Translations under genes and position numbers: made by a program | Notes under the pieces: model-generated | Databases searched by the model: none | Seen by the model: the letters and a program-made list of their open reading frames with translations, nothing else | Told to the model about the DNA's origin: nothing | Source: a virus | Direction: 5' to 3' (one strand) | Length of the DNA stretch: 64,000 bases | Virus record (IMG/VR): IMGVR_UViG_3300003690_003063 | Location: 48,059-112,058 of that record | Part shown: one piece after another, positions 34,601 to 53,052 of the stretch | How the letters are laid out: the number at the start of each line of letters is the position of its first letter | How positions within the stretch are numbered: position 1 is the stretch's first letter

Positions 34601-35328
34601 TTCAAGATACGATTAGATATCATTTAAAATTCGACACTTCTCTGTTTGATCTTGCTGATTCTTATGTGGGACAAAATGCTACTGTGGACGAGGTAGCGGC
34701 CTCAAAAAAGAAGGCCGACACCCTCTCCCGTACCGCACTTGTCCCCGAAGTGAGGCCGAATATTCCTACCGTTATCCTCTATAGTGTTGATTCCCGCCCA
34801 CGCACCGGCGATTATCAAGAAGATCTAGAGGCTGGTATATATCATTATTATTTGGGAGCATCCTGCGGCCTCGCCAAAAATATTAAGTTCAACCGAATTG
34901 ATTTTCCCGAGATGAGAGCAGCACGTATTACTAAGGATGGCTCACTGTCTGCCACCCAGCTTCGCGAATTATACATGGTGGACTTGGACTTAATTGGCAA
35001 CACCCTCCACAAAACAGGTCAATACGTGTTTATTGAACCTATAGGTGTTGGCCTTGGGTCGCTGAAGGCAGCTGGTACGATACCCAATTTAGCGCGCATT
35101 TTGGGGATTGGAGGGTATCACCTTATAAACTCTGTAAAGAGCGAAATTAGTGACGCCGGGTTTAATGTTTCAATCAGCGCTCAGCAGGAGGGAATGGCTT
35201 TTGATAACAATCGTATTATTTCTATAAATCGATGGCCCGAAACGGCGCCAAAGATTAAAGACAAAAAAGGAAAGAGGAAGAAAGGTGGAGAGAAAGAAGA
35301 AGCGCCACTCCCTGCGGACGGTTCTTAG
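31636..35328 (+). CDS. Large baseplate-associated structural protein
   Basis: 1230 residues, one of the largest genes. It follows gp53-LysM by eight bases. The N-terminal 300 residues resemble a peptidoglycan-binding-style region only loosely. The middle (about 450-620) is beta-rich with YIRLYRVDYRGDNTLYPFRE and IKSFSWSLDGTQPAEVDFNI. A highly charged K/E/R linker occurs at about 680-730. The C-terminal end (TGQYVFIEPIGVGLG, GIGGYHLINSVKSEISDAGF) is hub-like. I infer a baseplate hub or wedge protein; no enzymatic motif is clear. Confidence 0.6.
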   Translation: MGLKSHPNLVSIWKKYWDEVLVPACCRAYLTDYLSSAAIINQFADDPTKGFLKPKSEIRGAPFTDDDYVGLVTQDQYKQIEAKINQLYSGTGTETATAAVKAFRGMTVKPAIDHKNWWPGGEYKWEGLWVTMDGMQGVGLHDYLPRHTSTSAGPDNKSAQLSIADIILGSALMSVSNIFKFGSDSITGFGAGARGKDIVGSAIDDPSGYIILHPKKDKPSDPDDNDYSPIPTTQAWVNSHGGFKMPLWAKHVKTWSAVKALQPQTAGKHLDKKYKQNDALIFYTPGAGKHAREIAPWQVEFIARIARNHEEVLDTLVDEIIDNILADILDADPKGFTAAPPAQPARPPARKKAGREEMGKYGSFLKPFDLQCFLMENINLLSSTKEDADPYKYLGKLNGHSKHDQPGNLVSYIQHANRDSEVQALLETCPDVYALLSPYIRLYRVDYRGDNTLYPFRETEIPFPNFIDPKDISLIGSGLLGRVPGAGIKSFSWSLDGTQPAEVDFNISANLTVHFQTIQDLFSLNRDPNGMYRAGIGGEDEVPAPGYLDLIIGSGTSFLEQPVEIKEKPPSNGTVCDVVMQEYDGARFRIKVVVGWSIPTLSSILDATSLTAKQALAFKHAIEETKTSLYLQITGHQLNFKDDGALELSIDYVASLDGIMAAKDADIFAGDTTYTAKRKRAEDDQKEAKEDEKKKKEAAKRHRGGEETEDSDTAADDAEDSVLDKANKKVKELASKDRMARYRRFLGILYDKNRIYSVKISADMYQQGLISGQQNPEKRAEMARVRVGKDPAKRGFGEPQQSNNFDSTLMKDLASFSRTKGDTDKNALEGPDEFDKYAELQIKKDDDGSVTVPYFYLGDLIDGIFEYMNHLPVDAQGYHGSLQFLLGAMELIDPLQAFQVKDIELECVNANAKRVIRAIQDVDPLRFSGPGSGITFSINMGSIPISLHSFREWYVQNVVRSNRDKFMLLDFVKQVCASLVIKAFNAVCFQDTIRYHLKFDTSLFDLADSYVGQNATVDEVAASKKKADTLSRTALVPEVRPNIPTVILYSVDSRPRTGDYQEDLEAGIYHYYLGASCGLAKNIKFNRIDFPEMRAARITKDGSLSATQLRELYMVDLDLIGNTLHKTGQYVFIEPIGVGLGSLKAAGTIPNLARILGIGGYHLINSVKSEISDAGFNVSISAQQEGMAFDNNRIISINRWPETAPKIKDKKGKRKKGGEKEEAPLPADGS

Positions 35329-35394: not shown

Positions 35395-36834
35395 ATGGCA
35401 CACGACTATACACAATTTACTTTTCCCTACACTCTTAATGAGCTTGTTAACCCTCAAGGAAGAAACGCACTGGCAACCGGTGCTAAGTTTTTTCAGCGCA
35501 CGATGTACAGAGAGGCCATTTATCCAGACCACGCGGCCCATCTTCCACGACCTTTAGATACGTGGTATGACAAAAATCTTTTTGGGCGCGTAGATAGGTG
35601 TCAAAATACTATAGTCCCAGTGGGAAGCAATTTAAAAACTGTTCGTAAAGCTGCTACCTCCAATATCTATTGTTTAAATTTTGTGGAGTTAGCTTTTGAT
35701 GCTCTGGTTAGCCATATGGGAACTGCGGCCATAAACGGCTGTATGTCGACAGAGGGCACGCCGGCCATCTGGGACATGAAGGCGGTTCGTGGGTATGTAG
35801 ACCCTCATCAAAAGTACAAGGCTTTTCTGGACGGCTTAATCGATGCGTTTGCTAACGAACATGTTGACACGGGGCAAAACATTATTAAAAATTTTGATGA
35901 TTTTGTTCCCATATTCAAAAATTATATTTTGTATATTGCTCGTACCTATCCGATTACAAAAGAAAACTTTTTTCTTAGCAATGTTGTAAGCCCCTATATG
36001 ACTGGGCTTAGCCTGGCAATTTCGAGACATTCCGCAGCCGATGACGCCCCCAAATATCAAGACTATATTAACGATGTAAATTTTGACTATTATATAAAGT
36101 CTGCCAAGGAATACGGCTTTTTAGTTAATAAGAATATGCCATGGGTATTGACAGCTGATCTTTTTACCAACGCGATACAACGTTATATGAACTATTATCT
36201 TTTTGGGGACCCCTCTGACCCTGTGGCACCCGATAAGACTAACTTGTTCGAACTATATTATGATGAAGTATATCGGTCAGCTTTCGATAACTTGCGTTAT
36301 GTATTCGCTTACGGTTATTATAGGTTCAGACAACAGAAGCCACTTTATTCCGAGCGTAAGGTAATTTGGAAACAGTGTCACCCGGCCCCGGTGGGAGCGT
36401 CGCAGGGGCGAGTCATAGAGGGCTCCCTTACCGAGCATAATTTTTTTAGAAAGTACTATGGCGATATTACAGTGCTGGAAGGGATGCTTAAAGAGCAGTT
36501 TTTAATTGACCTCTATATCGATTTACGTCATATAGAGAGTAGAGAGAGTCACCCTTCTAAGTCAAATGTCAAAGCTCGTGCATATCAAGTATATGGCGCT
36601 CAATTGCCCACCGGGCAGGCGCCGATGCATGATGTCCTAGAATTCGTTAACGAAGTTTATCGTATTTATCTTTATCCTTCTAACTATGGGGATATTAATC
36701 TTACAACAAACCTTGACAAATTGCTTATTTCCGATATAATGGATACAGGAGTGGAGATAGCTGCCACACCAAGATGTACTAGTGCAACAGCCGCAGCCGT
36801 GGCAACACCTGGTGGTGGTTCTGGCTATCCGTAG
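35395..36834 (+). CDS. Structural protein of unknown role at end of virion module
   Basis: 479 residues, rich in Y, F, D and N, with no membrane segment. Blocks such as TLNELVNPQGRNALATGAKF, FVPIFKNYILYIARTYPITK, NMPWVLTADLFTNAIQRYMN and YYDEVYRSAFDNLRYVFAYG suggest a mostly helical, well-folded protein. The preceding baseplate genes and the late-like motif favour a virion protein. The gene also holds, near its 3' end, the strong sigma-70 promoter for the replication module. Confidence 0.5.
   Translation: MAHDYTQFTFPYTLNELVNPQGRNALATGAKFFQRTMYREAIYPDHAAHLPRPLDTWYDKNLFGRVDRCQNTIVPVGSNLKTVRKAATSNIYCLNFVELAFDALVSHMGTAAINGCMSTEGTPAIWDMKAVRGYVDPHQKYKAFLDGLIDAFANEHVDTGQNIIKNFDDFVPIFKNYILYIARTYPITKENFFLSNVVSPYMTGLSLAISRHSAADDAPKYQDYINDVNFDYYIKSAKEYGFLVNKNMPWVLTADLFTNAIQRYMNYYLFGDPSDPVAPDKTNLFELYYDEVYRSAFDNLRYVFAYGYYRFRQQKPLYSERKVIWKQCHPAPVGASQGRVIEGSLTEHNFFRKYYGDITVLEGMLKEQFLIDLYIDLRHIESRESHPSKSNVKARAYQVYGAQLPTGQAPMHDVLEFVNEVYRIYLYPSNYGDINLTTNLDKLLISDIMDTGVEIAATPRCTSATAAAVATPGGGSGYP
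36713..36740 (+). promoter_or_regulatory. Sigma-70 promoter at start of replication module
   Basis: TTGACA, a 16-base spacer and TATAAT: a perfect consensus pair inside the 3' end of the last structural gene. Transcription would begin near 36747 and enter the family-A polymerase gene. It marks the boundary between late and early/middle genes. Confidence 0.75.
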
Positions 36835-36837
36835 CGC

Positions 36838-38034
36838 GTGAAAAGAGTGTTATTTCAAATTTTAGATTCTAAAGCTGACTGCGTGGGGTATTATGCAGAC
36901 AATGCGATAAATGCGGGATTTCCTCCTCCTCTGACAGGTTCTACGTGGGACTATTCTCCCCACCTCTCTGGAAATAACTATGAGATAGCTCGCATTTATG
37001 GAAGCGGCGCCACGCTAACCGACCTATGTCCTCCAGAAATGAAAGACGAATGGGTTAGCGTTAAAAAAACACTTAAATCATGTCTCAAAGCCTTTGACAC
37101 AGCGTGCTTCTCAATGGAAGAGAATTGTTTTTATGATGCCGTGCCCGAATATTTTCTTTTTCAATACTTGAAAGCGAAAAATAAGATTACCCAACATATA
37201 TTGGAAACCTACCAGCGTCCCGATAACTATGATTTTATGTACAACTTAATTGAAATGCTATCTGATATTCGATCTCGCCCATTGGGTGTCGACATAGGTC
37301 CAATTGGACATTTGCTGAGCTCGGTGCGTGGTCAGAACTTTCAACGCACATTACAGCGCGCCAAACTTATTTGCGATTACAATCCTTGGGGCACCGTGAC
37401 TGGACGCTTGACCACCCAGACGAATAGCTTTCCTATTTTAACGATGAGTAAAGACTTTCGTTCGTGTATCCGCCCCCAGAATGACTGGCTCCTGGAGCTA
37501 GATTTTAATGCTGCTGAATTGAGAGTACTTTTGGCGCTCTGTGGTGCCAAACAGCCCACCAACGATATCCATGATTGGAATGTTAAAAATGTTTTTAAGG
37601 GCGCCATATCGCGGGAAGAGGCAAAGAAGAAAACGTTTGCGTGGCTCTATTCGCAGCGACCCAATGGCTCTTTGGAGCGTCTTTATGATAAGAATTTAGT
37701 GAGAAATAAGTATTGGGATGGCTGTAAAATTAAGACAGATTATGGTAGAATTATAGAGAATGTGGACGCACACCACGCGCTCAATTATGTTGTACAAAGC
37801 ACAACCATTGATATGGTGCACGAACAAGCGTATAAAATCTATAAGCTTTTGAAAGGAAGAAAAAGCAATATTTCGTTTTTGATTCATGATGCAGTTTATA
37901 TTGATCTGGATGATGAAGATCGCTATGAAATTTTAAATTTACTTGACACTTTTAAGGATACACGGTACGGTTCCTTTAAGATCAACATTTCAGCAGGCAA
38001 GAACCTGGGTCAAATGAAAGAACTTAAGCTATGA
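36838..38034 (+). CDS. Minimal family-A DNA polymerase (Pol I palm/fingers)
   Basis: 398 residues, GTG start. It holds all polymerase motifs of Pol I: GTVTGRLTT at 185-193; motif A LELDFNAAELRVLLALCG with D222; the O-helix R259xxxK263xxxF267xxxY271, equivalent to R754, K758, F762 and Y766 of E. coli Pol I; LNYVVQSTTIDM; and motif C with H350 D351. The 5' and 3' exonuclease domains are absent; a separate 5'-3' exonuclease gene lies at 42348. The product looks catalytically competent. It coexists with a Pol III alpha gene, so a repair or gap-filling role is likely. Confidence 0.8.
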   Translation: MKRVLFQILDSKADCVGYYADNAINAGFPPPLTGSTWDYSPHLSGNNYEIARIYGSGATLTDLCPPEMKDEWVSVKKTLKSCLKAFDTACFSMEENCFYDAVPEYFLFQYLKAKNKITQHILETYQRPDNYDFMYNLIEMLSDIRSRPLGVDIGPIGHLLSSVRGQNFQRTLQRAKLICDYNPWGTVTGRLTTQTNSFPILTMSKDFRSCIRPQNDWLLELDFNAAELRVLLALCGAKQPTNDIHDWNVKNVFKGAISREEAKKKTFAWLYSQRPNGSLERLYDKNLVRNKYWDGCKIKTDYGRIIENVDAHHALNYVVQSTTIDMVHEQAYKIYKLLKGRKSNISFLIHDAVYIDLDDEDRYEILNLLDTFKDTRYGSFKINISAGKNLGQMKELKL

Positions 38035-38351
38035 AAAAATTATTATACCATAAATTAGTACGAGACCGAATCCCAGAGATTATTGAAGAGTCTGGGAAGG
38101 CCTTTAAAATACGCCAAGAAAGGGGTGATCGCTTAAAAGATTATGCCATGCGAAAACTTCAAGAGGAGGTAATGGAGTTTGTAGAAAACCCTTGCGCCGA
38201 GGAAGCAGCTGACATTATGGAAATAATGAATTTTATTTGCTACCGATTGAGCATTCATGATCATACTATTTTGGCTGAGGCAACTGCAAAGCGGGTCACC
38301 CGCGGCGGCTTTGATATGGGCTTTATTTTAGAGTGGGTGGACGACTCATGA
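38031..38351 (+). CDS. MazG-like NTP pyrophosphohydrolase
   Basis: 106 residues, 4-base ATGA overlap with the polymerase gene. The start LYHKLVRDRIPEIIEESGK and the metal-binding helix pair (KLQEEVMEFVE, then EEAADIMEIMNF) match the all-alpha NTP-PPase superfamily (COG4997/MazG-like). These enzymes hydrolyse NTPs to NMP and PPi, for nucleotide-pool cleaning or to lower stringent-response signals; phage MazG proteins are common in aquatic phages. Confidence 0.75.
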   Translation: MKKLLYHKLVRDRIPEIIEESGKAFKIRQERGDRLKDYAMRKLQEEVMEFVENPCAEEAADIMEIMNFICYRLSIHDHTILAEATAKRVTRGGFDMGFILEWVDDS

Positions 38352-39199
38352 AAATTATAGGCCTCGGGAAGGCAGGATGTAATCTTGCAAAGGCATTTTC
38401 AAAGTTCCCACAGTATGATACCTACAGGATTGATACCGATAAGGATGCGGACATCACCATTAAAGAACGACATAGCCACGAAGAATACGATGCCCACTTT
38501 CCAAGTCTGAAAAAAAAATTAAAGTTTACGGATGAAGAGGTGTGGGTTATAGCTTGCGGCGCGGGCAAAATCTCAGGGGGACTCCTTCGTCTCTTGGAAC
38601 AACTTAAGGCCAACACCATTTATATTTTATATATCAAGCCTGAGTTGTCGTTACTGAGTGAGGTACAGACTATTCAGGAGAAGGTAGTGCGAAACGTCCT
38701 TCAAGAGTATGCACGTTCGGGACTCGTTGAGGCCATCTGGTTAATTGACAATCAATATGTTGAAGGGGGGCTTGGCGATATTCCCATTTTAGGGTATAAT
38801 GATATTCTCAACCAGGCGATAGTCAACACCGTACACATGATAAACGTATTCAAGAACTCAGACCCTGTGATTGGCACCTTCATGACGCCCTCTAACCTGA
38901 GTCGCATCGGCACCGTGGGAATTTTGGATATTGAAAAAGAAGAAGAAAAATGGTTTTATCCCTTGACAAGCGTGCGTGATGTAGTATACTATTATGGTAT
39001 CAACGAAGAACAACTGAGGGAAGACGGCACACTGTATAGAAGCATTACCAACTATGTTAAGTCCAAGCAAGATGAAAACTTGAATGTTTCATACGGCGTC
39101 TTCAAAACAACGTATGAACAAAAATATTGTTATTGCGTTAAGTATTCTTCTATGGTACAATCATATAAAGACTTACTAGACGATCAGGAGATTAGCTGA
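38348..39199 (+). CDS. FtsZ/tubulin-like protein
   Basis: 283 residues from ATG 38348, a 4-base overlap with the gene before; an earlier in-frame start is rejected. The layout follows FtsZ: glycine loop MKIIGLGKAGCNLAKAF, an NTD-like YRIDTDKDAD, then the T4-loop position VIACGAGKISGGLLRLLEQL, a strand YILYIKPELSLL, a long helix EKVVRNVLQEYARSGLVEAI and WLIDN. The canonical GGGTGTG is degenerate (CGAGKISGG), and the T7-loop catalytic aspartates are not evident. GTP binding and polymerisation are uncertain. Confidence 0.55.
   Translation: MKIIGLGKAGCNLAKAFSKFPQYDTYRIDTDKDADITIKERHSHEEYDAHFPSLKKKLKFTDEEVWVIACGAGKISGGLLRLLEQLKANTIYILYIKPELSLLSEVQTIQEKVVRNVLQEYARSGLVEAIWLIDNQYVEGGLGDIPILGYNDILNQAIVNTVHMINVFKNSDPVIGTFMTPSNLSRIGTVGILDIEKEEEKWFYPLTSVRDVVYYYGINEEQLREDGTLYRSITNYVKSKQDENLNVSYGVFKTTYEQKYCYCVKYSSMVQSYKDLLDDQEIS
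38963..38990 (+). promoter_or_regulatory. Internal sigma-70 promoter upstream of SSB
   Basis: TTGACA, 16 bases, TATACT inside the FtsZ-like gene, pointing to the SSB gene. A second weaker pair (TTGCGT, 17 bases, TACAAT at 39133-39161) lies closer. An abundant SSB would benefit from its own promoter. Confidence 0.5.
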
Positions 39200-39233
39200 T
39201 CGTACTATAACCCAACTATAAGGAGATAAAAAA

Positions 39234-40007
39234 ATGGGTATTAATTTAGACAAGATGAGAGAGAAGCTCTCATCACTACGTGGAGACGGAAACTCCTCAA
39301 ATGACACTTTCTGGCGCCCCGAGGACGGGGACCAGACTATTAGAATCGTTCCGACATCGGACGGAGACCCCTTCAAGGAAATGTGGTTTCACTACAATGT
39401 CGAAAAGGGCGGTTTCTTATGTCCCAAGCGCAACTACAGTGACGAGTGTCCTGTATGTGAGTTCGCCTCACAGTTGTGGCGCGAAGGGGCAGACAACAAC
39501 GACGAACACAGCAAGAAGGTGGCAAAGTCCCTCTTCGTGCGACAGCGTTTCTTCAGTCCCGTGATGGTTCGCGGCGAGGAAGAGCGAGGCGTCCGAGTAT
39601 GGGGCTACGGTAAGACGGCGTATGAGAATCTTCTCACGCTCGTGCTTAACCCTGAGTATGGTGACATTACCGATACCGAAACTGGTACCGATCTCACTAT
39701 GACCTACGGAAAGCCCCCCGGCGCTTCCTTCCCTCAGACGAAGCTTGTGCCGCGCCGGCGGTCTTCCCCTCTTTGCGAGGATCTGACGCCTGAGAAGTGC
39801 GTAGAGCTGCTGGATGCTATCCCAGATTTTACTGGGCTGTTTGAGCGAAAGACGACTGCGGACGTGCAGACGATTCTCGATAACTTTGTCAACTCTCAGG
39901 TTGACGATCCCGAGACGGTCAGTAGCGAGACCGAAAAGTATGGCAAGTCTGGCGATGGCGAAGCTAACGCTGTCGACGCAGCTTTCGCAGAGCTTGGAGC
40001 TCTCTAA
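39234..40007 (+). CDS. 32: Single-stranded DNA-binding protein (T4 gp32-like)
   Basis: 257 residues, preceded by AAGGAG. The N-terminal basic helix (LDKMREKLSSLRGD) serves cooperativity in gp32. The zinc site is visible as H53, C63, C72 and C75 (FHYN, FLCPKRNYSDECPVCEF), the same order as H64, C77, C87 and C90 of T4 gp32. The OB-fold core follows (AKSLFVRQRFFSPVMVRGEE), and the C-terminus is acidic with a hydrophobic end FAELGAL, for contacts with replication partners. Confidence 0.88.
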   Translation: MGINLDKMREKLSSLRGDGNSSNDTFWRPEDGDQTIRIVPTSDGDPFKEMWFHYNVEKGGFLCPKRNYSDECPVCEFASQLWREGADNNDEHSKKVAKSLFVRQRFFSPVMVRGEEERGVRVWGYGKTAYENLLTLVLNPEYGDITDTETGTDLTMTYGKPPGASFPQTKLVPRRRSSPLCEDLTPEKCVELLDAIPDFTGLFERKTTADVQTILDNFVNSQVDDPETVSSETEKYGKSGDGEANAVDAAFAELGAL

Positions 40008-40068: not shown

Positions 40069-40257
40069 ATGACTATTGAAACAAATCTACTTGAGCAGCT
40101 GATCACGCTTCTTGAGGAAACTCGCGAAGACCACGAAAAGTTTTTTGAACGTAGCAACAATGCTGCTGGAACTCGTATACGTAAGGCAATGCAAGAAGTG
40201 AAGACTTTGGCTCAGGATCTTCGCATTGAAGTTCAAGAGGCCAAAAACACAGAGTAA
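40069..40257 (+). CDS. Histone H1-like (Hc1-type) small DNA-binding protein
   Basis: 62 residues, preceded by AAAGGAAG. The pattern LEETREDHEKFFERSNNAAG TRIRKAMQEVKTL AQDLRIEVQEAK is that of the short Hc1/histone H1-like family found in some bacteria and their phages: a helix hairpin with AAGTR(I/V)RKxxQExKxLAQ. The C-terminal Lys tail of true Hc1 is missing. It may organise nucleoid or phage DNA. Its place between SSB and RecA agrees with a DNA-linked role. Confidence 0.65.
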   Translation: MTIETNLLEQLITLLEETREDHEKFFERSNNAAGTRIRKAMQEVKTLAQDLRIEVQEAKNTE

Positions 40258-40275: not shown

Positions 40276-40299
40276 GAGGCATGGGGATACAGATGCCTC
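40276..40299 (+). promoter_or_regulatory. Repeated RNA hairpin, copy 2
   Basis: GAGGCAT pairs perfectly with ATGCCTC around a short loop. The pairing is kept relative to copy 1 although bases differ (a G-T pair in copy 1 is G-C here), which suggests selection on the fold. Confidence 0.45.
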
Positions 40300-40322
40300 A
40301 ACTTTACGAAAAGGGAGAAAGA

Positions 40323-40811
40323 GTGAAAAATATTATAGAGAAACTTCAGCAACTTAATATTGGACCCGATGATTACGTTTATCTTAACTACGTTGATCGC
40401 GCCGATGTATGGCACATTTCTGATGATTATGTTGAGGAAGCCCTAGGGGAAACAAGCACTGCTAGTAAGTTAGCGGGCCTTTTATCCAGACCTGGTGTGA
40501 GAGTTTATTCGCGTTATGAAGAAGACATACTAGAGTTGATGCGCGACAACGATCTATTAGAAGATTATGATCGGGAGGGATGGTTTGAAAAATATCTCAC
40601 GGAAACCCTCATAACACAGGCGTATGAGTATGATCTATTGACTGTTTCTACAGAGCGGCACGACCACAAGCGCGGCACGTGTGAGATTTCCGCCAACGTT
40701 AAGGTGAGGGCTGAAGATATTTACCATCTTGGTGACGAAGCTAACGCTTTTGTGCAAGATTTTGATGTTGTAGTTCAAACCGAGAACGGCGTCTTGCTGG
40801 TGGCAGTTTAA
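40323..40811 (+). CDS. Hypothetical protein before recombinase gene
   Basis: 162 residues if translation begins at GTG 40323, which has AAGGGAG at ideal spacing; ATGs at 40281 and 40293 overlap the hairpin and are less likely. It is acidic and rich in Y, D and E. Motifs include LNIGPDDYVYLNYVDRADVW and a beta-rich end CEISANVKVRAEDIYHLG. I do not recognise the family. It is probably co-transcribed with the recombinase gene 15 bases later. Confidence 0.5.
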   Translation: MKNIIEKLQQLNIGPDDYVYLNYVDRADVWHISDDYVEEALGETSTASKLAGLLSRPGVRVYSRYEEDILELMRDNDLLEDYDREGWFEKYLTETLITQAYEYDLLTVSTERHDHKRGTCEISANVKVRAEDIYHLGDEANAFVQDFDVVVQTENGVLLVAV

Positions 40812-44709: not shown

Positions 44710-47130
44710 ATGTTTGATAAAGATAAAGTACGAGAGGATACTCTTGAATATTTTGATGGTGATGAGCTGGCAACGAATGTTTTTATGACGAAGTATTGTT
44801 TGCGTGACAAAAAAGGTAATTTTATGGAGAAAACTCCAGATGATATGCATAAGCGTATTGCTAAGGAGTTCGCGCGGATGGAAGATAAATTTATTACCCG
44901 GAAGTCAAATCATTTGACAGAGGATGAGATATATTCATTCCTCAAAGATTTCAAATACATCGTGCCCCAGGGCTCTCCAATGATGGGAATAGGAAATAAT
45001 TATGTTAATGTGTCACTGTCTAATTGCGTTGTTATTGATAACCCCGCCGACTCTGTATCAAGCATCATGGACGCGGGCAAAGATCTTGCGAATCTCTTTA
45101 AACGTAGGTGCGGTGTTGGGGTTGATATATCTTCTCTTCGTCCTGAAGGGGCTGTGGTCAATAATTCCGCTCGGACTACTACTGGTGCGTGGTCTTTTGC
45201 TGATTTTTACTCCTACGTCTGCCGAATGATCGGACAAAACGGGCGCCGCGGTGCCCTCATGATTTCGCTGGATGTACGCCATCCTGATATCAAAAAGTTT
45301 GTACAAATGAAGAAGGATCTCACAAAGGTGACGGGGGCTAATGTGTCCATTAAAATAAGTGACAGCTTTATGGAAGCCGTAGAGAAGAAAGAAACGTTTA
45401 CTCTACAATTTCCCGTTGATAGCGAAGACCCGGAGTATGTGAGGGACATAGATGCCGCTGCGTTGTGGAGTACTATCGTGGAGTCAGCGACTACGGGTGC
45501 CGAACCGGGCCTCCTGATGTGGGATAATATTATTAGGAATTTGCCGGCCCATGAATATGAGGAGTTCAGTACCAAAACTACTAACCCCTGCGGAGAAATA
45601 CCTCTTTCGGCTTACGATAGCTGTAGGCTTGTATCTCTGAATTTAAAAAGTCTCGTCAAAAATTCTTTTGAAAAAAGTGCAAACTTTGACTTTGGTAAGT
45701 TAAGAGAGATAGCTGCTATTGGTATGCGTCTCTCAGATGACCTAGTAGAATTAGAGTTAGAAAAACTAGAAACTATTTGCAGTGTGGCGGATACGGATGA
45801 CGAGAAAGAACTTTGGTTAAAACTGCACGGCGCCGCAAAGAATGGCAGGCGCACAGGTTTGGGCACCCACGGGCTTGCGGACGCGTTGGCATGTCTTAAT
45901 CTGGCATACGATAGTGATGAGGCCCTTGTGGTTATTGAGCAAATTTACCGCACACTACGCGACGCAGCATACGAAGAGAGCGTTTATCTTGCTCAAGAGC
46001 GAGGCGCCTTTCCTGCGTTTGACTGGAGTGTCGAGGAAAACAACGAGTTTATTCAGAGACTCCCAGAAGAACTAAAGAAAATGATCGCACAGTATGGACG
46101 TCGCAACATTTCTATTCTTACTAACGCACCAACGGGCTCTGTCTCTATAATGTCTCAAACGTCTTCGGGTTTAGAGCCTGTTTTTAGGAATTCTTATATC
46201 CGTCGCCGCAAACTTTCGCACGACGAACAGCATCTTGATGCCGATCACGTCGACGAGGTGGGAGATCGATGGCTTGAGTATGAGGTGTTCCATCACAATG
46301 CTCAGGCATGGTTTGAGTGGCATCCTTTTAAAGAGCCGGGCCCCCTTCCCGCATTTTTTGTAGAATCGGACAGCATCGATTGGACCCGACGAATTGCGGT
46401 GCAGTCTGTCATACAACAGAACATAGATCATAGTATTAGTTCGACAATTAATCTTCCCAAAGGTACTTCGCCGGCATTGGTGGGGGAGCTTTATATGGAA
46501 GGGTGGAAGCAAGGACTCAAGGGGATTACTGTTTATGTGGAAGGATCTCGTTCGGGGGTTCTTTTATCCCAGACAACGGATATTTTTCCACAGCATACTG
46601 CTCCCAAACGTCCGATTGAATTAGACTGTAATATTCACCACACCACCATCCAGGGCGAGAAGTGGATCATTGTTGTAGGCCTCATGGATAACAGGCCGTA
46701 TGAAATTATGGGAGGACTTTCAAATTTGATTGAAATTCCCCGTGACAAGGCGGCAGGTATTTTGGTGAAGAACCCAAGGAAGACGATGAATTCTGTTTAT
46801 GATTTGAAGGTGGGAAAGAATGGCGACCATGTTATCGTAAAAGATTTGGTCAAGGTTTTCGATAACCCTAATCATTCAGCGTTTACGCGCATGATTTCGC
46901 TTGGTCTTCGTCACGGATCCAACATTCAATATGTAGTTGAACAGCTTCAGAAGGATCGGGATAGCGATATGTTTAGTTTTGCTCGTTGTATGGCACGCAT
47001 TTTGAAGAACTACATTCCAGATGGGCAGCAAGCCACGGAGCGCACGTGTGGAGAATGTGGTACCGAAGGACTGATATATGTAGAGGGTTGTGTTACATGT
47101 TCCAACTGTGGTTTTGCGAAGTGCGGCTAG
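44710..47130 (+). CDS. nrdJ: Class II (adenosylcobalamin-dependent) ribonucleotide reductase
   Basis: 806 residues. It makes deoxynucleotides in a B12-dependent way. The sequence shows FKYIVPQGSPMMGIGN, SLSNCVVIDNPADS, KRRCGVGVDISSLRP, the radical-site block NPCGE with C294, NRRTGLGTHGLAD-type GRRTGLGTHGLADALA, and ILTNAPTGSVSIMSQTSSGL. A C-terminal zinc ribbon (ERTCGECGTEGLIYVEGC, then CSNCGFAKCG) is typical of NrdJ. No separate small subunit gene is adjacent, as expected. Confidence 0.92.
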   Translation: MFDKDKVREDTLEYFDGDELATNVFMTKYCLRDKKGNFMEKTPDDMHKRIAKEFARMEDKFITRKSNHLTEDEIYSFLKDFKYIVPQGSPMMGIGNNYVNVSLSNCVVIDNPADSVSSIMDAGKDLANLFKRRCGVGVDISSLRPEGAVVNNSARTTTGAWSFADFYSYVCRMIGQNGRRGALMISLDVRHPDIKKFVQMKKDLTKVTGANVSIKISDSFMEAVEKKETFTLQFPVDSEDPEYVRDIDAAALWSTIVESATTGAEPGLLMWDNIIRNLPAHEYEEFSTKTTNPCGEIPLSAYDSCRLVSLNLKSLVKNSFEKSANFDFGKLREIAAIGMRLSDDLVELELEKLETICSVADTDDEKELWLKLHGAAKNGRRTGLGTHGLADALACLNLAYDSDEALVVIEQIYRTLRDAAYEESVYLAQERGAFPAFDWSVEENNEFIQRLPEELKKMIAQYGRRNISILTNAPTGSVSIMSQTSSGLEPVFRNSYIRRRKLSHDEQHLDADHVDEVGDRWLEYEVFHHNAQAWFEWHPFKEPGPLPAFFVESDSIDWTRRIAVQSVIQQNIDHSISSTINLPKGTSPALVGELYMEGWKQGLKGITVYVEGSRSGVLLSQTTDIFPQHTAPKRPIELDCNIHHTTIQGEKWIIVVGLMDNRPYEIMGGLSNLIEIPRDKAAGILVKNPRKTMNSVYDLKVGKNGDHVIVKDLVKVFDNPNHSAFTRMISLGLRHGSNIQYVVEQLQKDRDSDMFSFARCMARILKNYIPDGQQATERTCGECGTEGLIYVEGCVTCSNCGFAKCG

Positions 47131-47140
47131 TTATATAGAG

Positions 47141-47440
47141 ATGATACAGTTTACTGATAAAGCAACGGAGCGCATCACCAAGGTTTTAGAAGCCGGCGAG
47201 GCTATTAGGATTGCGGTCCAGGGGGGCGGATGCTCGGGTATGTCATATTGTTTGAATATAGAGACGGAAGAGCCGGACGAAGAAGATATTTTACTTGACA
47301 TTACTGCTGTAAAGATATATATTGATCCTATGAGTGCTGGGATTCTAAAGGACACTACGGTAGATTACATAGCCACACTACAGCAAGAGGGATTTGTCCC
47401 CAGAACGTGGGATCTTTTGATAAGGACGAACAACATGTAG
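47141..47440 (+). CDS. iscA: IscA/HesB-like Fe-S protein lacking the CGCG end
   Basis: 100 residues. A-type carriers bind and pass on Fe-S clusters through three cysteines. Here the first is present in VQGGGCSGMSYCLNIE, and the strand IYIDPMSAGILKDTTVDYIA matches the family, but after QQEGF the sequence leaves the family and the CxC pair (CGCG) is missing. The last 15 residues are the out-of-frame reading of the start of the next gene (IscU-like), so the C-terminus was lost by deletion. The ATG at 47141 is chosen over one inside the RNR gene. Confidence 0.7.
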   Translation: MIQFTDKATERITKVLEAGEAIRIAVQGGGCSGMSYCLNIETEEPDEEDILLDITAVKIYIDPMSAGILKDTTVDYIATLQQEGFVPRTWDLLIRTNNM

Positions 47441-47733
47441 GTACGGGTATCGTGGGCGCCCCAGAATGTGGAGATGTGATGAAACTTCAAATTAAAGTAG
47501 ATGACAGTGGGTATATCTGTGACGCCAAGTTTAAAACCTTTGGGTGTGGGTCGGCCATTGCCGCCTCATCACTAGCTACAGAATGGATCAAGGGAAAGAC
47601 CTTGAAAGAGGCCGCCGAGATTAAAAATACAGATATCGTGGAAGAGCTCTCTTTGCCCCCCGTTAAGATACATTGCTCGGTGTTAGCAGAAGAGGCAATC
47701 AAGGCGGCAATAGAAGATTTGGAGAATAAATGA
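47407..47733 (+). CDS. iscU: IscU/NifU-N-like Fe-S scaffold protein
   Basis: 108 residues from GTG 47407. It is very close to bacterial IscU: GSFDKDEQHVGTGIVGAPEC, GDVMKLQIKVDDSG, FKTFGCGSAIAASSLATEWI, and LPPVKIHCSVLAEEAIKAAI. All three cluster-binding Cys (in APECGD, FGCGS and IHCSV) and the LPPVK chaperone motif are present. The usual first 20 or so residues are missing; the frame upstream still reads PQNVGSFDK, like the NPRNVGSFDK of IscU. It overlaps the IscA-like gene by 34 bases, so translation is coupled or frameshifted. Confidence 0.85.
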   Translation: MGSFDKDEQHVGTGIVGAPECGDVMKLQIKVDDSGYICDAKFKTFGCGSAIAASSLATEWIKGKTLKEAAEIKNTDIVEELSLPPVKIHCSVLAEEAIKAAIEDLENK

Positions 47734-48771: not shown

Positions 48772-49615
48772 GCCTACAATGCCGGCAATCATTCCAATTG
48801 CCGGCCTGAACACAGAATTTGGTATGGAATGGGATTCTTCATTGGTACCGATCGCACCTAATTATACAGCATTGGAAGGCGCCGTCTATGAGTGTCTCCA
48901 TGCTGGTTGTACATCAATTTGGATTGTGGCCAATGATGATGTGGCGCCTCTATTGCGCTGGCGCCTCGGGGAGTATGCTACAGATATTGATAGTATTCAG
49001 CGTGGCCACTTTGCAGCCTTCGGACATACAAAACATATAGAGGTGCCAATTTATTACGTGCCCATTCACCCCAAACACCGAGAGAAAGTAGACAACTATG
49101 CGTGGTCCATCATCTATGGGGCCAACGTAGCCTACTGGATACACACAAAGTTTTCGCGATGGGTGCAGCCGAGTCGTTACTACATATCTTTTCCAATGGG
49201 TATGATGGATCCTAAAGAAGTATTAGAGCATCGGTCTCAATTACGAAAGAACGTTCCCTTTTATTTCTCGCACAAGGGCCAAACAGTTAAAGACGGCGTG
49301 CCCTTGAGTTTTGTTATAGACCCAGGAGAGTGGCGGCGCGCCAAGAAAATAATTACCACTAACTCGTCCTATTACAAAGCTCCCCCCCTTGGGGAAATGC
49401 CGTCGGAACCGCTAGCCCCCAGCGAGCGTCACATATCATTGGCCTATGGTCTGGAGGACGTGTTTGGCCCGGGCCGCGACGGCACCCTTTGTGAAATTGA
49501 TAATTTTTACGACTTGACTTTGTGGAGTGGATATGTTAAATTTATATCATCGGAGTTGGGCGCCAGAACGAAACGTCCCAACACAAACACTATGTATAGA
49601 GGGAGAAACAAGTGA
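48764..49615 (+). CDS. Nucleotidyltransferase-fold protein
   Basis: 283 residues. The start PAIIPIAGLNTEFGMEWDSS with LVPIAPNYTALEGAVYECLH and CTSIWIVANDDVAPLLRWRLG follows the Rossmann-like pattern of sugar-nucleotide transferases (substrate loop, then AV..C..AG, then an IWIV strand with NDD). The usual GxGxR-K signature is altered (GLNTEFGMEWDSSL), so activity and substrate are uncertain. It may modify a nucleotide or a surface sugar. Confidence 0.5.
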   Translation: MSKPTMPAIIPIAGLNTEFGMEWDSSLVPIAPNYTALEGAVYECLHAGCTSIWIVANDDVAPLLRWRLGEYATDIDSIQRGHFAAFGHTKHIEVPIYYVPIHPKHREKVDNYAWSIIYGANVAYWIHTKFSRWVQPSRYYISFPMGMMDPKEVLEHRSQLRKNVPFYFSHKGQTVKDGVPLSFVIDPGEWRRAKKIITTNSSYYKAPPLGEMPSEPLAPSERHISLAYGLEDVFGPGRDGTLCEIDNFYDLTLWSGYVKFISSELGARTKRPNTNTMYRGRNK

Positions 49616-52600
49616 ACGAGAAAAAGATTCCTTTCGTAGGGCTTCATGCACACAGCGTAGCAGGCTCTATTTTTGATGCCATCGGATATCCAGATGAACA
49701 TATGGATTTCTGTTATGAAAACGGGGGTGAAGCACTTGCCCTTACAGACCACGGGAACATGAATGGGTTCTCACACCAGTTTTTACACTGGCAAAAGATG
49801 AAGTCCGAAGGAAAGGAATTTAAGCCTATCTTCGGAGTGGAAGCATACTTTCTTCCCTCCATTGATGACTGGCGCGATGACTATAATCGTATTAAGACAG
49901 ATGCCAAGCAAGCGAAATCGTTGGCGAAAGAGGGCGACACGTCGGGGGCCACCGTGGAGGACGAAGAGGCATCGAAGAAGGCAATCAAGTCTGTATTGAA
50001 CCACCGGCGCCATTTAATTCTGTTGGCTCAAAACCAGACAGGATTGAACAATCTGTTTAAGATTGTATCAGAGTCTTACCGGGAAGAGAACTTCTATCGT
50101 TACCCACGCGTGGATTACGATATGCTCGACCGACACTCAGAAGGAGTGATTGCCGCGTCTGCATGTCTGGGTGGACCTTATGCGGGAAACTACTGGGCCC
50201 ACCGAGAAGAGGGACCCGACGCGGTGAGGGAAGCGATGCGGGAAACAACCCGGCGCTTTGTAGAAGTCTTCGGAGACCGATGGTATGGAGAACTTCAATG
50301 GAACCAGATTCCAGAGCAACACGAACTAAACCAGTTTATCATCGAAATGCATCACGAGTTTGGAATCCCGCTGATTTCAACGGCGGACAGTCATTACCCT
50401 GGCCCCGACGCCTGGAAGGACCGCGAGCTTTACAAGCGGCTTGGCTGGCTTGGGAAGGGAACTCCCGCGTGGGCTGAGGATAATACTGAGCTTCCGAAGG
50501 GCGTTGAAGAGATAGGTTATGAAATCTATCCCAAAAACGGCAACCAGATGTGGGACTCTTATAAAACATATGCCAAGATTGCTGAGCAGGAGTACGATGA
50601 TGACTTGGTAATGAAGTCAATTACAGACACACATCACATCGCATTCAATTTGATCGAGGACTTTACCCCCAACACCACCGTTAAGCTACCCGACTTTGTG
50701 GTTCCGGCCGGCTTCACGGACGCCGAGGCCTTGGTTAACTATGCTCTGGAAGGTTTGCGCCATCGTGGACTTCATGAGAAAGAAGAGTACACAACGAGGC
50801 TGCAGCGGGAACTTGATGTTATTGAGGACCGAGGATTCAGCAAGTACTTTCTGACGATGAAGGCTATTGCTGACAAGGCTAACGAGGTTCAGCTAACTGG
50901 CCCCGGCCGAGGGTCAGCCGCTGGTTCTCTAACTGCGTATGTCCTGGGCATAACACAGATCGATCCCATTAAGTACGGGCTTCTGTTTGAGAGATTCTTG
51001 CGCAAGGACGCGACGGACTATCCAGATATTGATTATGATGTGGCTGAGCCTATGGAACTTAAGGAAATGTTAATGGAGGATTGGGGCAAGAATTCAGTCA
51101 TCCCAATTTCAAACTGGAACACGCTTCAGCTGAAGTCTCTTATCAAAGATATTTCAAAGTTCTATGGCGTGGAGTTTGGGGAAGTGAACAAAGTAACTTC
51201 TATGATGATTGCTGAGGCGACTCCCGCGGCAAAGATGAAGCACGGGATCAAGGCAGGAGTATATGCTCCGACTTGGGAAGAGGTTATGGAGTTGTCCCCC
51301 TCTTTGCGTGGCTACCTAGTAAAGTATCCGCACATTAAGACACACGTTGAAGCGTTGGTAGGACAGGTTCGATCTTGTTCTCGTCACGCCGGCGGCGTTC
51401 TGATTGCCGACGACTTGAACGAGCATATGCCCATCATTAGTTCGGGCGGAGTGCGACAATCGCCATGGTCTGAGGGACAACACGTCCGGCACCTTGAACC
51501 GCTCGGGTTTATTAAGTTTGATTTGTTGGGGCTCTCGACGCTTCGTATGATTGCTGAAGCGATTCGGCACATCCTGAAGCGACACGGCAAGAATCCAAAT
51601 CCAACCTTCGTAGATGTAAAAGCATTTTATAATGAGTTTCTCCATCCGGACGTCCTTGACTTCGAGGATCAGAAGGTGTATAGGAATATTTTCCAGAAGG
51701 GAAACTTCGCCGGTATTTTTCAGTTCACAGAGCAACGCGCCCAGGAATTCTGCGCGAACGCAAAGCCGAAGTCTTTAATTGATATCTCGGCCATCACATC
51801 GATCTATCGACCGGGACCCCTATCGGCCAATGTGCACGAGCAATACATTCAAGCTAAGGAAAATCCGGGCGACATCGATTATATCAATGAGCACGTGAAA
51901 GATATTACCAAGGAAACCTACGGATTCCTAATCTTCCAAGAACAGATTGCCCTCCTTGCTCACAAGTTAGGGAAGGGACTAACCCTAGATGAGGGAAACC
52001 TGCTAAGGAAGGTGCTCACCAAGAGGGGAACGGGGAAGGAAGCCAGAGTTAAGAAAGCCCTACGGACCAAGTTCATCGACGGGTGCATAGAGAAAGGAAT
52101 TCGCCACAGCGAGGCCGAAGATATGTGGGAGAGGTTCGAATACTTCTCGGGTTACGGTTTCAATAAGTCGCACGCGGTTTCGTACTCAGCAATCTCGTTC
52201 CAGTGCGCGTGGCTCTACAACTACTACCCCGTAGAGTGGATGGCGTCGTTCCTGGACAAGGAACCTGAGAAGCGCAAGGAACGCGCTATCAACATCGCGA
52301 AGTCAAACGGCTTTGAGATTGTGGAAGCGGATATCAATACTTCATCGTTCGTATGGGAAATCGATCCCGGCGATCCCAAGAGGCTCTATCAGCCGTTGAG
52401 TGGACTCAAGGGATTGGGGGACGCAGCCATCGAACAAATTGTGGCGAACAGACCATTCAATGATATCGAAGAGTTCCTCTTCCACGACGACATTGTGTAT
52501 AGCAAGCTTAATAAGAAGGCGCTGGATGTGTTAGTGCGCTCTGGTGCATTGAATAGCCTCATGGACGAACGATTTACGGGGCGAAAACATTTTTGGTCAA

Positions 52601-53052
52601 CTGTTGCAGTCGACCGGGTCTACAGTCGAAAGAAATTTTTAGATAACATAGAGACTTACAAAGACGAGGGAGACTTTACCAACGAAGAGGAAATTGATAA
52701 TCTAACTACTCTCACTGGTATCTTCCCCATGCATTTGGTCATGACCGAGGCCGTAAGAAACAAATTAAATTCCTATTACATCCCGGCTATCTCAGATTAT
52801 GATCCTGAACTAGGCCTTGTTTGGTTCATTCCCAGAGAAATTATTAAGAAGAAGACTAAGAACGATAAGCCTTACTGGATTGTGGCAGTCATTGATTCCA
52901 ATTCGGTCTTGACAAAGTTTCGCTGTTGGGGTATAGTGGAAGGTAAGGATAGAATTCACTTGAACCACCCCTATATGGGCAAACTAGATTTCGACCCATC
53001 GTGGGGATTCTCAACCAGGTCCATTAGAAGGAATTTGAGGCGACTAGGATGA
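49612..53052 (+). CDS. dnaE: DNA polymerase III alpha subunit
   Basis: 1146 residues, GTG start, near the length of E. coli DnaE (1160). The N-terminal PHP domain starts FVGLHAHSVAGSIFDAI with LTDHGNMNG near 45. The polymerase core has GPGRGSAAGSLTAYVLG, the catalytic PDIDYD at 471-476 (D472 and D474), then CSRHAGGVLIADDLNEHMPI, FKYD-like IKFDLLGLSTLRMI, and GYGFNKSHAVSYSAISFQ. A helix-hairpin-helix and an OB fold lie at the C-terminus. It is probably the replicative polymerase of this phage; beta clamp and proofreading partners are not in the window. Confidence 0.93.
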   Translation: MNEKKIPFVGLHAHSVAGSIFDAIGYPDEHMDFCYENGGEALALTDHGNMNGFSHQFLHWQKMKSEGKEFKPIFGVEAYFLPSIDDWRDDYNRIKTDAKQAKSLAKEGDTSGATVEDEEASKKAIKSVLNHRRHLILLAQNQTGLNNLFKIVSESYREENFYRYPRVDYDMLDRHSEGVIAASACLGGPYAGNYWAHREEGPDAVREAMRETTRRFVEVFGDRWYGELQWNQIPEQHELNQFIIEMHHEFGIPLISTADSHYPGPDAWKDRELYKRLGWLGKGTPAWAEDNTELPKGVEEIGYEIYPKNGNQMWDSYKTYAKIAEQEYDDDLVMKSITDTHHIAFNLIEDFTPNTTVKLPDFVVPAGFTDAEALVNYALEGLRHRGLHEKEEYTTRLQRELDVIEDRGFSKYFLTMKAIADKANEVQLTGPGRGSAAGSLTAYVLGITQIDPIKYGLLFERFLRKDATDYPDIDYDVAEPMELKEMLMEDWGKNSVIPISNWNTLQLKSLIKDISKFYGVEFGEVNKVTSMMIAEATPAAKMKHGIKAGVYAPTWEEVMELSPSLRGYLVKYPHIKTHVEALVGQVRSCSRHAGGVLIADDLNEHMPIISSGGVRQSPWSEGQHVRHLEPLGFIKFDLLGLSTLRMIAEAIRHILKRHGKNPNPTFVDVKAFYNEFLHPDVLDFEDQKVYRNIFQKGNFAGIFQFTEQRAQEFCANAKPKSLIDISAITSIYRPGPLSANVHEQYIQAKENPGDIDYINEHVKDITKETYGFLIFQEQIALLAHKLGKGLTLDEGNLLRKVLTKRGTGKEARVKKALRTKFIDGCIEKGIRHSEAEDMWERFEYFSGYGFNKSHAVSYSAISFQCAWLYNYYPVEWMASFLDKEPEKRKERAINIAKSNGFEIVEADINTSSFVWEIDPGDPKRLYQPLSGLKGLGDAAIEQIVANRPFNDIEEFLFHDDIVYSKLNKKALDVLVRSGALNSLMDERFTGRKHFWSTVAVDRVYSRKKFLDNIETYKDEGDFTNEEEIDNLTTLTGIFPMHLVMTEAVRNKLNSYYIPAISDYDPELGLVWFIPREIIKKKTKNDKPYWIVAVIDSNSVLTKFRCWGIVEGKDRIHLNHPYMGKLDFDPSWGFSTRSIRRNLRRLG
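52909..52937 (+). promoter_or_regulatory. Internal sigma-70 promoter before the endonuclease-methylase pair
   Basis: TTGACA, 17 bases, TATAGT inside the end of the polymerase gene, 112 bases before the endonuclease-like gene. Confidence 0.65.

Follow-up and report, generated by a model that had tools for sequence, protein, structure and literature searches.

The window analyzed here, a 64-kb stretch of a 112,058-base virus record, contains a replication module made up of polA, a MazG-like gene, gp32, and RecA, exonuclease, and DnaB-type genes. Within it lies a gene that we call TUB, whose product is predicted to adopt a tubulin fold; the first-pass annotation had proposed an FtsZ/tubulin-like protein in a replication module at this position, and the neighboring genes agree with that placement. 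The core of the locus is as follows, with coordinates referring to the window.

36838–38034, + strand: family A DNA polymerase, polymerase domain (polA; PF00476, E 2.9e-12)
38031–38351, + strand: presumed MazG-like nucleotide pyrophosphohydrolase (motif)
38348–39199, + strand: TUB, predicted tubulin-fold protein of 283 aa (open reading frame, AlphaFold model, profile comparison, relatives, dN/dS)
39234–40007, + strand: gp32-like single-stranded DNA-binding protein (PF08804, E 3.6e-14; phrog_1192)

The TUB start codon overlaps the stop codon of the upstream gene (ATGA), and an ATGA, GTGA, or TTGA overlap is found in 89 of the 93 relatives open to inspection; gp32 begins 34 nt past the end of TUB. 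We assume the MazG-like identity of the upstream product from its motif, and no match of any weight was found for it in Pfam, PHROG, or NCBIfam. Right after gp32, a 62-aa protein present in most loci (40069–40257) resembles histone H1-like Hc1 (PF07432, E 5.2e-20). Two conserved neighbors, at 35395–36834 and 40281–40811, have no Pfam or PHROG match, and the former diverges fast (23 to 53% identity). Farther downstream are an Fe-S assembly-like pair (47090–47440, an unnamed PHROG, and 47407–47733, NifU-like phrog_8429, E 6.1e-30), a 1146-aa reading frame that by eye resembles a DnaE-type polymerase III alpha subunit, present besides the family A polymerase (49612–53052), and a phage GroEL (60803–62377; phrog_5725, E 2e-135). 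No tRNA was found in the 64-kb window.

TUB is a real gene under strong purifying selection. We gathered 94 further distinct full-length members (54 to 74% identity), or 95 with that of the window. Members entered the family alignment if their 3′ end was complete and they started no more than 15 residues from the N terminus, and because of these entry criteria, the divergent member L492 stands outside the 95. From 30 chosen members, 21 close pairs qualified for dN/dS estimation; 19 of them gave values of 0.025 to 0.125, and the remaining 2 were saturated.

To describe the distribution of the gene, we used gp32 as the query, which found 80 loci. The 75 with at least 300 nt upstream were counted, leaving out L458, L461, L464, L474, and L368, which are also absent from the leader set discussed below. 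TUB lies upstream of gp32 in all 75 of these testable loci of marine T4-like phages; in 3 of them, the two genes are about 1 kb apart, with a methyltransferase-like reading frame between them. Three IMG/VR protein searches over overlapping sets recovered TUB relatives in 125 of 145, 153 of 184, and 78 of 82 pattern stretches, and the contigs that carry TUB reach 194 kb. The window protein had no relative at E ≤ 1 in 50,697 phage records, a divergent member gave two weak partial hits only (E 4 and E 10) among cultured phages, and 83 pattern stretches from cellular genome contigs included no TUB relative. In the nearest isolates by gp32 (Mel-JY01, immuto, and SPO1), the TUB slot holds another kind of protein, judging by eye from their annotation. 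TUB is a core gene of one marine T4-like phage clade without cultured relatives.

The window protein has no Pfam match above the cut-off, and no family library gives it a name. We examined its kinship with an AlphaFold model built on 48 aligned members (pLDDT 87.9, pTM 0.87), which has a two-domain tubulin fold with the central helix H7 and matches the tubulin superfamily from residue 1 to about residue 276. Among the matches listed by Foldseek against the PDB, the best was FtsZ 3vo8 (E 5.1e-12, TMq 0.67), and VIA Z scores reached 23.9 for CetZ 3zid (259 aligned residues, 4.0 Å), 22.0 for FtsZ 2r6r (267 residues, 3.7 Å), and 21.5 for TubZ 2xka (273 residues, 3.7 Å). The best 50 matches listed in each of two PDB comparisons of this main model all belong to the tubulin superfamily. 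A second model, built for another TUB subclade from 15 similar sequences, was of poor quality (pLDDT 65.2), with a best match to TubZ that covered mainly the N-domain (Z 16.3, 159 aligned residues); poor as it is, it pointed the same way.

At the profile level, hhalign scored the TUB family at 42.3 against a joint FtsZ and CetZ alignment (159 columns, TUB residues 1 to 166), with a mean of 15.0 and a maximum of 21.1 in 60 column shuffles. The FtsZ and CetZ sets were built from 13 genomes plus Escherichia coli, and the joint alignment puts T1, T2, T4, S5, S6/T6, and H7 of TUB in register. The match is strong with the joint profile only, FtsZ by itself scoring 23.1 (39 columns) and a set of five CetZ-type sequences 25.0 (20 columns). 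The first-pass annotation had suggested a comparison with tubulin/FtsZ profiles: the joint profile exceeded every shuffle, but PF00091 matched only 2 of the 48 members (best E 0.058), none above the cut-off, and gave no match at E ≤ 1 in a scan of eight records. The motifs on which that annotation relied are present, namely, the glycine loop GLGKAGC (residues 5 to 11), IDT after strand 2 (28 to 30), CGAGKISGG (70 to 78), a strand ending in KPE (97 to 99), LIDN (132 to 135), and a long helix (150 to 169). That TUB is a tubulin-fold protein, as first supposed, is strongly supported by the predicted structure and the profile alignment.

Alternatively, TUB could be a Rossmann dinucleotide-binding protein of the TrkA-N type and not a relative of tubulin, since the TrkA_N profile matched 33 of the 48 members, with a best E of 2.9e-5. 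Yet the window protein itself falls under the curated TrkA_N cut-off, and hhalign to a TrkA_N set of 15 scored 32.3 (maximum of its shuffles, 27.4) over 19 columns that cover the glycine loop alone, compared with 159 columns for FtsZ and CetZ. A fold lacking the tubulin N-domain, or one matching another Rossmann family, had been named in advance as the outcome that would overturn the tubulin assignment; what we found instead was a predicted tubulin fold over the whole chain and, in the listed PDB matches, nothing but the tubulin superfamily. Because of this whole-chain fold and the restriction of the TrkA match to 19 columns, we reject the NAD-type Rossmann reading, which is very improbable.

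We then located the elements of the predicted nucleotide site and scored their conservation in the family.

38360–38380, + strand: T1 glycine loop GLGKAGC, residues 5 to 11 (G5, L6, G7, and G10 in 94/94), in register with T1 of FtsZ/CetZ
38477–38488, + strand: HEEY, residues 44 to 47, at the FtsZ T3 region (H44 in 95/95, E45 in 94/95, Y47 in 95/95)
38558–38578, + strand: GAGKISG, residues 71 to 77, at the T4 position (G71 in 95/95, G73 in 92/95, I/V75 in 94/95, S/T76 in 94/95, G77 in 95/95)
38660–38662, + strand: E105, start of helix H5 (E in 90/95)
38750–38752, + strand: N135, end of strand S6 (N in 92/95), profile-aligned with the Asn of FtsZ IPN
38795–38854, + strand: core helix H7, residues 150 to 169 (model and profile register)

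In FtsZ and tubulin, we take the guanine and ribose contacts to be made by an Asn in T6, an Asn and an aromatic residue in H7, and a Glu at H5. Residue N155 of TUB (95/95) and an aromatic residue at position 151 (91/95) align with the Asn and Phe of FtsZ H7, although the window protein itself has Asn, not an aromatic residue, at 151. E105, placed by secondary structure only, presumably stands where FtsZ has its ribose-contacting Glu. Judged by the alignment, the predicted guanine and ribose contact positions are conserved.

Other loops are altered. The strict tubulin/FtsZ signature in loop T4 is GGGTG[ST]G; as had been noted for the window sequence, it is replaced, and nearly all of the 95 members have G-[AS]-G-x-[IV]-[ST]-G. 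In the H2-S3-T3 stretch, FtsZ has about 20 residues more than TUB. The T7 aspartates had been reported missing, and indeed, no NxDFAD motif occurs in the 95 members and no helix H8 in the model; residue 172, right after H7 (E in 83 and D in 4 of 95), is the sole near-invariant acid there, and its alignment to the T7/H8 acid is uncertain. In this T7/H8 stretch, G176 and R186 are invariant (R186 in 95/95), and E172, F178, and P181 are near-invariant. The protein had also been called degenerate, a description that we do not uphold: the replacements at T3, T4, and T7/H8 are themselves conserved, and selection is purifying; therefore, TUB was rebuilt rather than decayed. It was probably re-specialized, with nucleotide binding kept and the usual T7-driven hydrolysis lost, and with H8 and the T7 motif gone, a canonical protofilament is less likely.

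Conserved base-contact positions combined with replaced T3, T4, and T7 would also suit an accessory factor of the polymerase/gp32 complex that senses nucleotides as a monomer, having kept the tubulin fold and lost polymerization; the overlap of TUB with the MazG-like gene and its location between polA and gp32 fit such a role. However, the interaction with the polymerase or gp32 is putative, and the invariance of the C-domain, as described below, is partly confounded. We consider this reading doubtful.

Compared with CetZ and FtsZ, TUB shares the fold over the whole chain, keeps the T6 and H7 Asn residues, and has a T1 loop, GLGKAGC, close to GxGQAGG of CetZ. In contrast to them, it has 283 aa, lacks H2, most of S3/T3, and H8, reads GAGxISG at T4, and has neither NxDFAD nor a PF00091 match above the cut-off. 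With its FtsZ-like nucleotide face and changed bottom face, TUB would suit a cap, and it could be a decoy that binds host FtsZ, by capping or co-polymerizing, and halts division during infection. FtsZ is a known target of phage proteins, such as Gp0.4 of T7, according to the abstract of PMC13423816. Yet in every testable relative, TUB is part of the core replication operon, not of the variable early takeover genes, and its identity to the FtsZ chains among the matches listed is only 10 to 17%, which makes a decoy unlikely.

PhuZ resembles TUB in being a phage-encoded tubulin fold with an altered T4 loop (GGASGS in the phiKZ protein), and PhuZ of Noxifer was a BFVD match to the TUB model (TMq 0.53). 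Nevertheless, the PhuZ profile phrog_4733, which matches 11 of 14 cellular controls, had no match at E ≤ 1 in six records. The claim that TUB is more FtsZ-like than PhuZ stands in part: the predicted fold is nearest CetZ, FtsZ, and TubZ, and the PhuZ profile is absent from those six records. The available portions of PMC3678025 and PMC7950403 describe a long C-terminal helix H11 in PhuZ, whereas TUB lacks a long C-terminal helix and its model ends in a six-residue, low-confidence helix (273 to 278). The nuclear shell profile found its positive control in phiKZ and no match in five phage records, which may be incomplete, and unlike the nucleus-forming jumbo phages with PhuZ, the records searched reach 194 kb. 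PhuZ-type nucleus positioning was rejected, with the PhuZ profile absent in six records and the shell protein in five.

TubZ, which acts in the partition of plasmids and plasmid prophages, likewise shares the fold, but TUB has polA, the MazG-like gene, and gp32 as neighbors, and no adjacent TubR-type gene was recognized. The closest viral structure among the BFVD matches listed was A0A6J5RW92, annotated “FtsZ Cell division GTPase,” from an uncultured Caudovirales phage (TMq 0.74, E 3.2e-11); it differs from TUB in its length of 452 aa, with 15% identity. Since BFVD names this phage protein FtsZ, other phage FtsZ-like proteins exist. TUB is a separate tubulin-fold family, which is not PhuZ, TubZ, FtsZ, or CetZ. 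In the open PMC papers covered, no account of this family was recognized. As far as their accessible text goes, PMC7950403 confines phage tubulins to large-genome phages, in the two subgroups TubZ and PhuZ, PMC7824862 gives two distinct representatives, from jumbo phages, and PMC13282480 names PhuZ only; the part of PMC10134851 that uses archaeal ftsZ as a marker gene has no bearing on TUB.

The 3′ end of TUB carries a second layer of conservation. Over the final third of TUB, the 95 members have frozen synonymous codons. Excess codon sharing has a mean of 0.164 (standard deviation, 0.306) over 183 scored columns, and it reaches 1.00 at L206 (TTG in 95/95) and G217 (GGT in 95/95), 0.92 at V213, 0.86 at T207, and 0.77 at Y214; 13 codons between 259 and 282 have an excess of at least 0.75. 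The elements of this region are listed below, together with a promoter consensus ahead of polA.

36713–36740, + strand: perfect sigma70 consensus TTGACA-16-TATAAT ahead of polA, within the upstream gene (promoter scan)
38963–38990, + strand: P1, sigma70-like promoter within TUB, TTGACA-16-TATACT, codons 206 to 214 (TTG in 95/95, GTA in 92/95, TAC in 90/95)
39133–39161, + strand: P2, probable extended −10 promoter within TUB, TTGCGT-17-TACAAT with TGG before the −10 (codon freezing, leaders)
39180–39203, + strand: covarying hairpin with an 8-bp stem and an 8-nt loop, spanning the TUB stop codon (distance to the gp32 start codon, 30 nt)

The best promoter score of P1 is 11/12 in 67 of the 95 members and at least 9 in 93. 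For P2, with the element sequence TATTGC...TGGTACAAT, 62 of 67 distinct leaders match the −10 part T[AG]TGGTACA[AG]T exactly. The phage may favor a 16-nt promoter spacer. Between positions 35300 and 41900, the window has 28 promoter-like sites, compared with 12.1 (standard deviation, 3.7) in shuffles. The invariance of the TUB C-domain is partly confounded by these DNA-level control elements; positions with free codons are invariant too, such as Y215, encoded by TAT in 55 and TAC in 40 of the 95.

For the hairpin, 76 leaders were deduplicated to 67, window counted, and the stem is paired at 8/8 positions in all 67. In 36 leaders hand-chosen from these for diversity, a choice that raises the counts of changed pairs, pairing holds in 288 of 288 cells (8/8 pairs in 36/36 sequences), and six of the eight pairs have compensatory changes on both sides. 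The covariation score was reached in none of 500 shuffles, and when the stem is slid along the sequence, no more than 52% of cells are paired. The hairpin model matches once per record in eight of eight records, and no Rfam family corresponds to it; a weak second match in L430 (338–395; 17.7 bits, E 0.63) is probably due to chance.

In L020, L443, L450, L009, and L110, the 5′ stem arm reads TAG for CAG, and TUB therefore stops early; the 3′ arm is changed, and pairing is kept. In L454, L456, and L459, the DNA methyltransferase-like frame (identified by eye) lies between TUB and the hairpin, which stays with gp32, and TUB has no DDQDI tail. Just before the hairpin, these three leaders have TTGACA-16-TATA[CA]T, read by eye; the 17-nt-spacer promoter pattern is found in none of them, the spacer there being 16. 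The divergent L492 lacks both the DDQDI tail and P2, yet it has the hairpin. Given the hairpin, we rejected the view that the conserved tail DDQDI[SG] is a motif of the protein; it is largely a by-product of the RNA structure.

By analogy with T4, the hairpin is a probable gp32 control element. According to the text available from PMC535899, the T4 gene 32 operator is an RNA structure that immediately precedes the gp32 ribosome-binding site and overlaps the preceding reading frame; the leader studied here likewise has a conserved RNA structure a short distance ahead of the gp32 start. The two differ in that the T4-type operator is a pseudoknot followed by UUAAA/UAAA repeats, whereas our leader was analyzed as a simple 8-bp hairpin, and in the gene before gp32, which is segG in T4 and TUB here. 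Most likely, the hairpin controls the translation of gp32 as the autogenous operator does in T4.

For the protein, we favor a role at phage replication sites, as a structural or positioning element; this role is inferred from the fold and the gene neighborhood, and we give it an even chance. As such, TUB would bind GTP or GDP, either monomeric or assembled into a noncanonical polymer, and would do so without the usual T7-driven GTPase cycle; it would serve the replication machinery of the phage itself and would not act as a treadmilling spindle. Within the final third of the gene, P1 and P2 would supply gp32 transcripts, whose translation would be regulated by the hairpin over the TUB stop codon. 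More broadly, and only tentatively, TUB may represent a third phage tubulin lineage, outside the PhuZ of jumbo phages and TubZ: a filament or scaffold that, without the usual GTPase cycle, organizes replication sites in T4-like ocean phages of ordinary size and whose gene gained a second role as a transcriptional and translational control region for gp32.

A tubulin fold present in every testable member of this marine T4-like clade, with its polymerization and hydrolysis loops rebuilt, would widen the known uses of the fold. TUB would also serve as a natural experiment, showing which parts of the nucleotide cycle are indispensable to a cytoskeletal protein. Coding and regulatory information overlap densely at the 3′ end of the gene, a clean case of an RNA structure overriding a protein tail.
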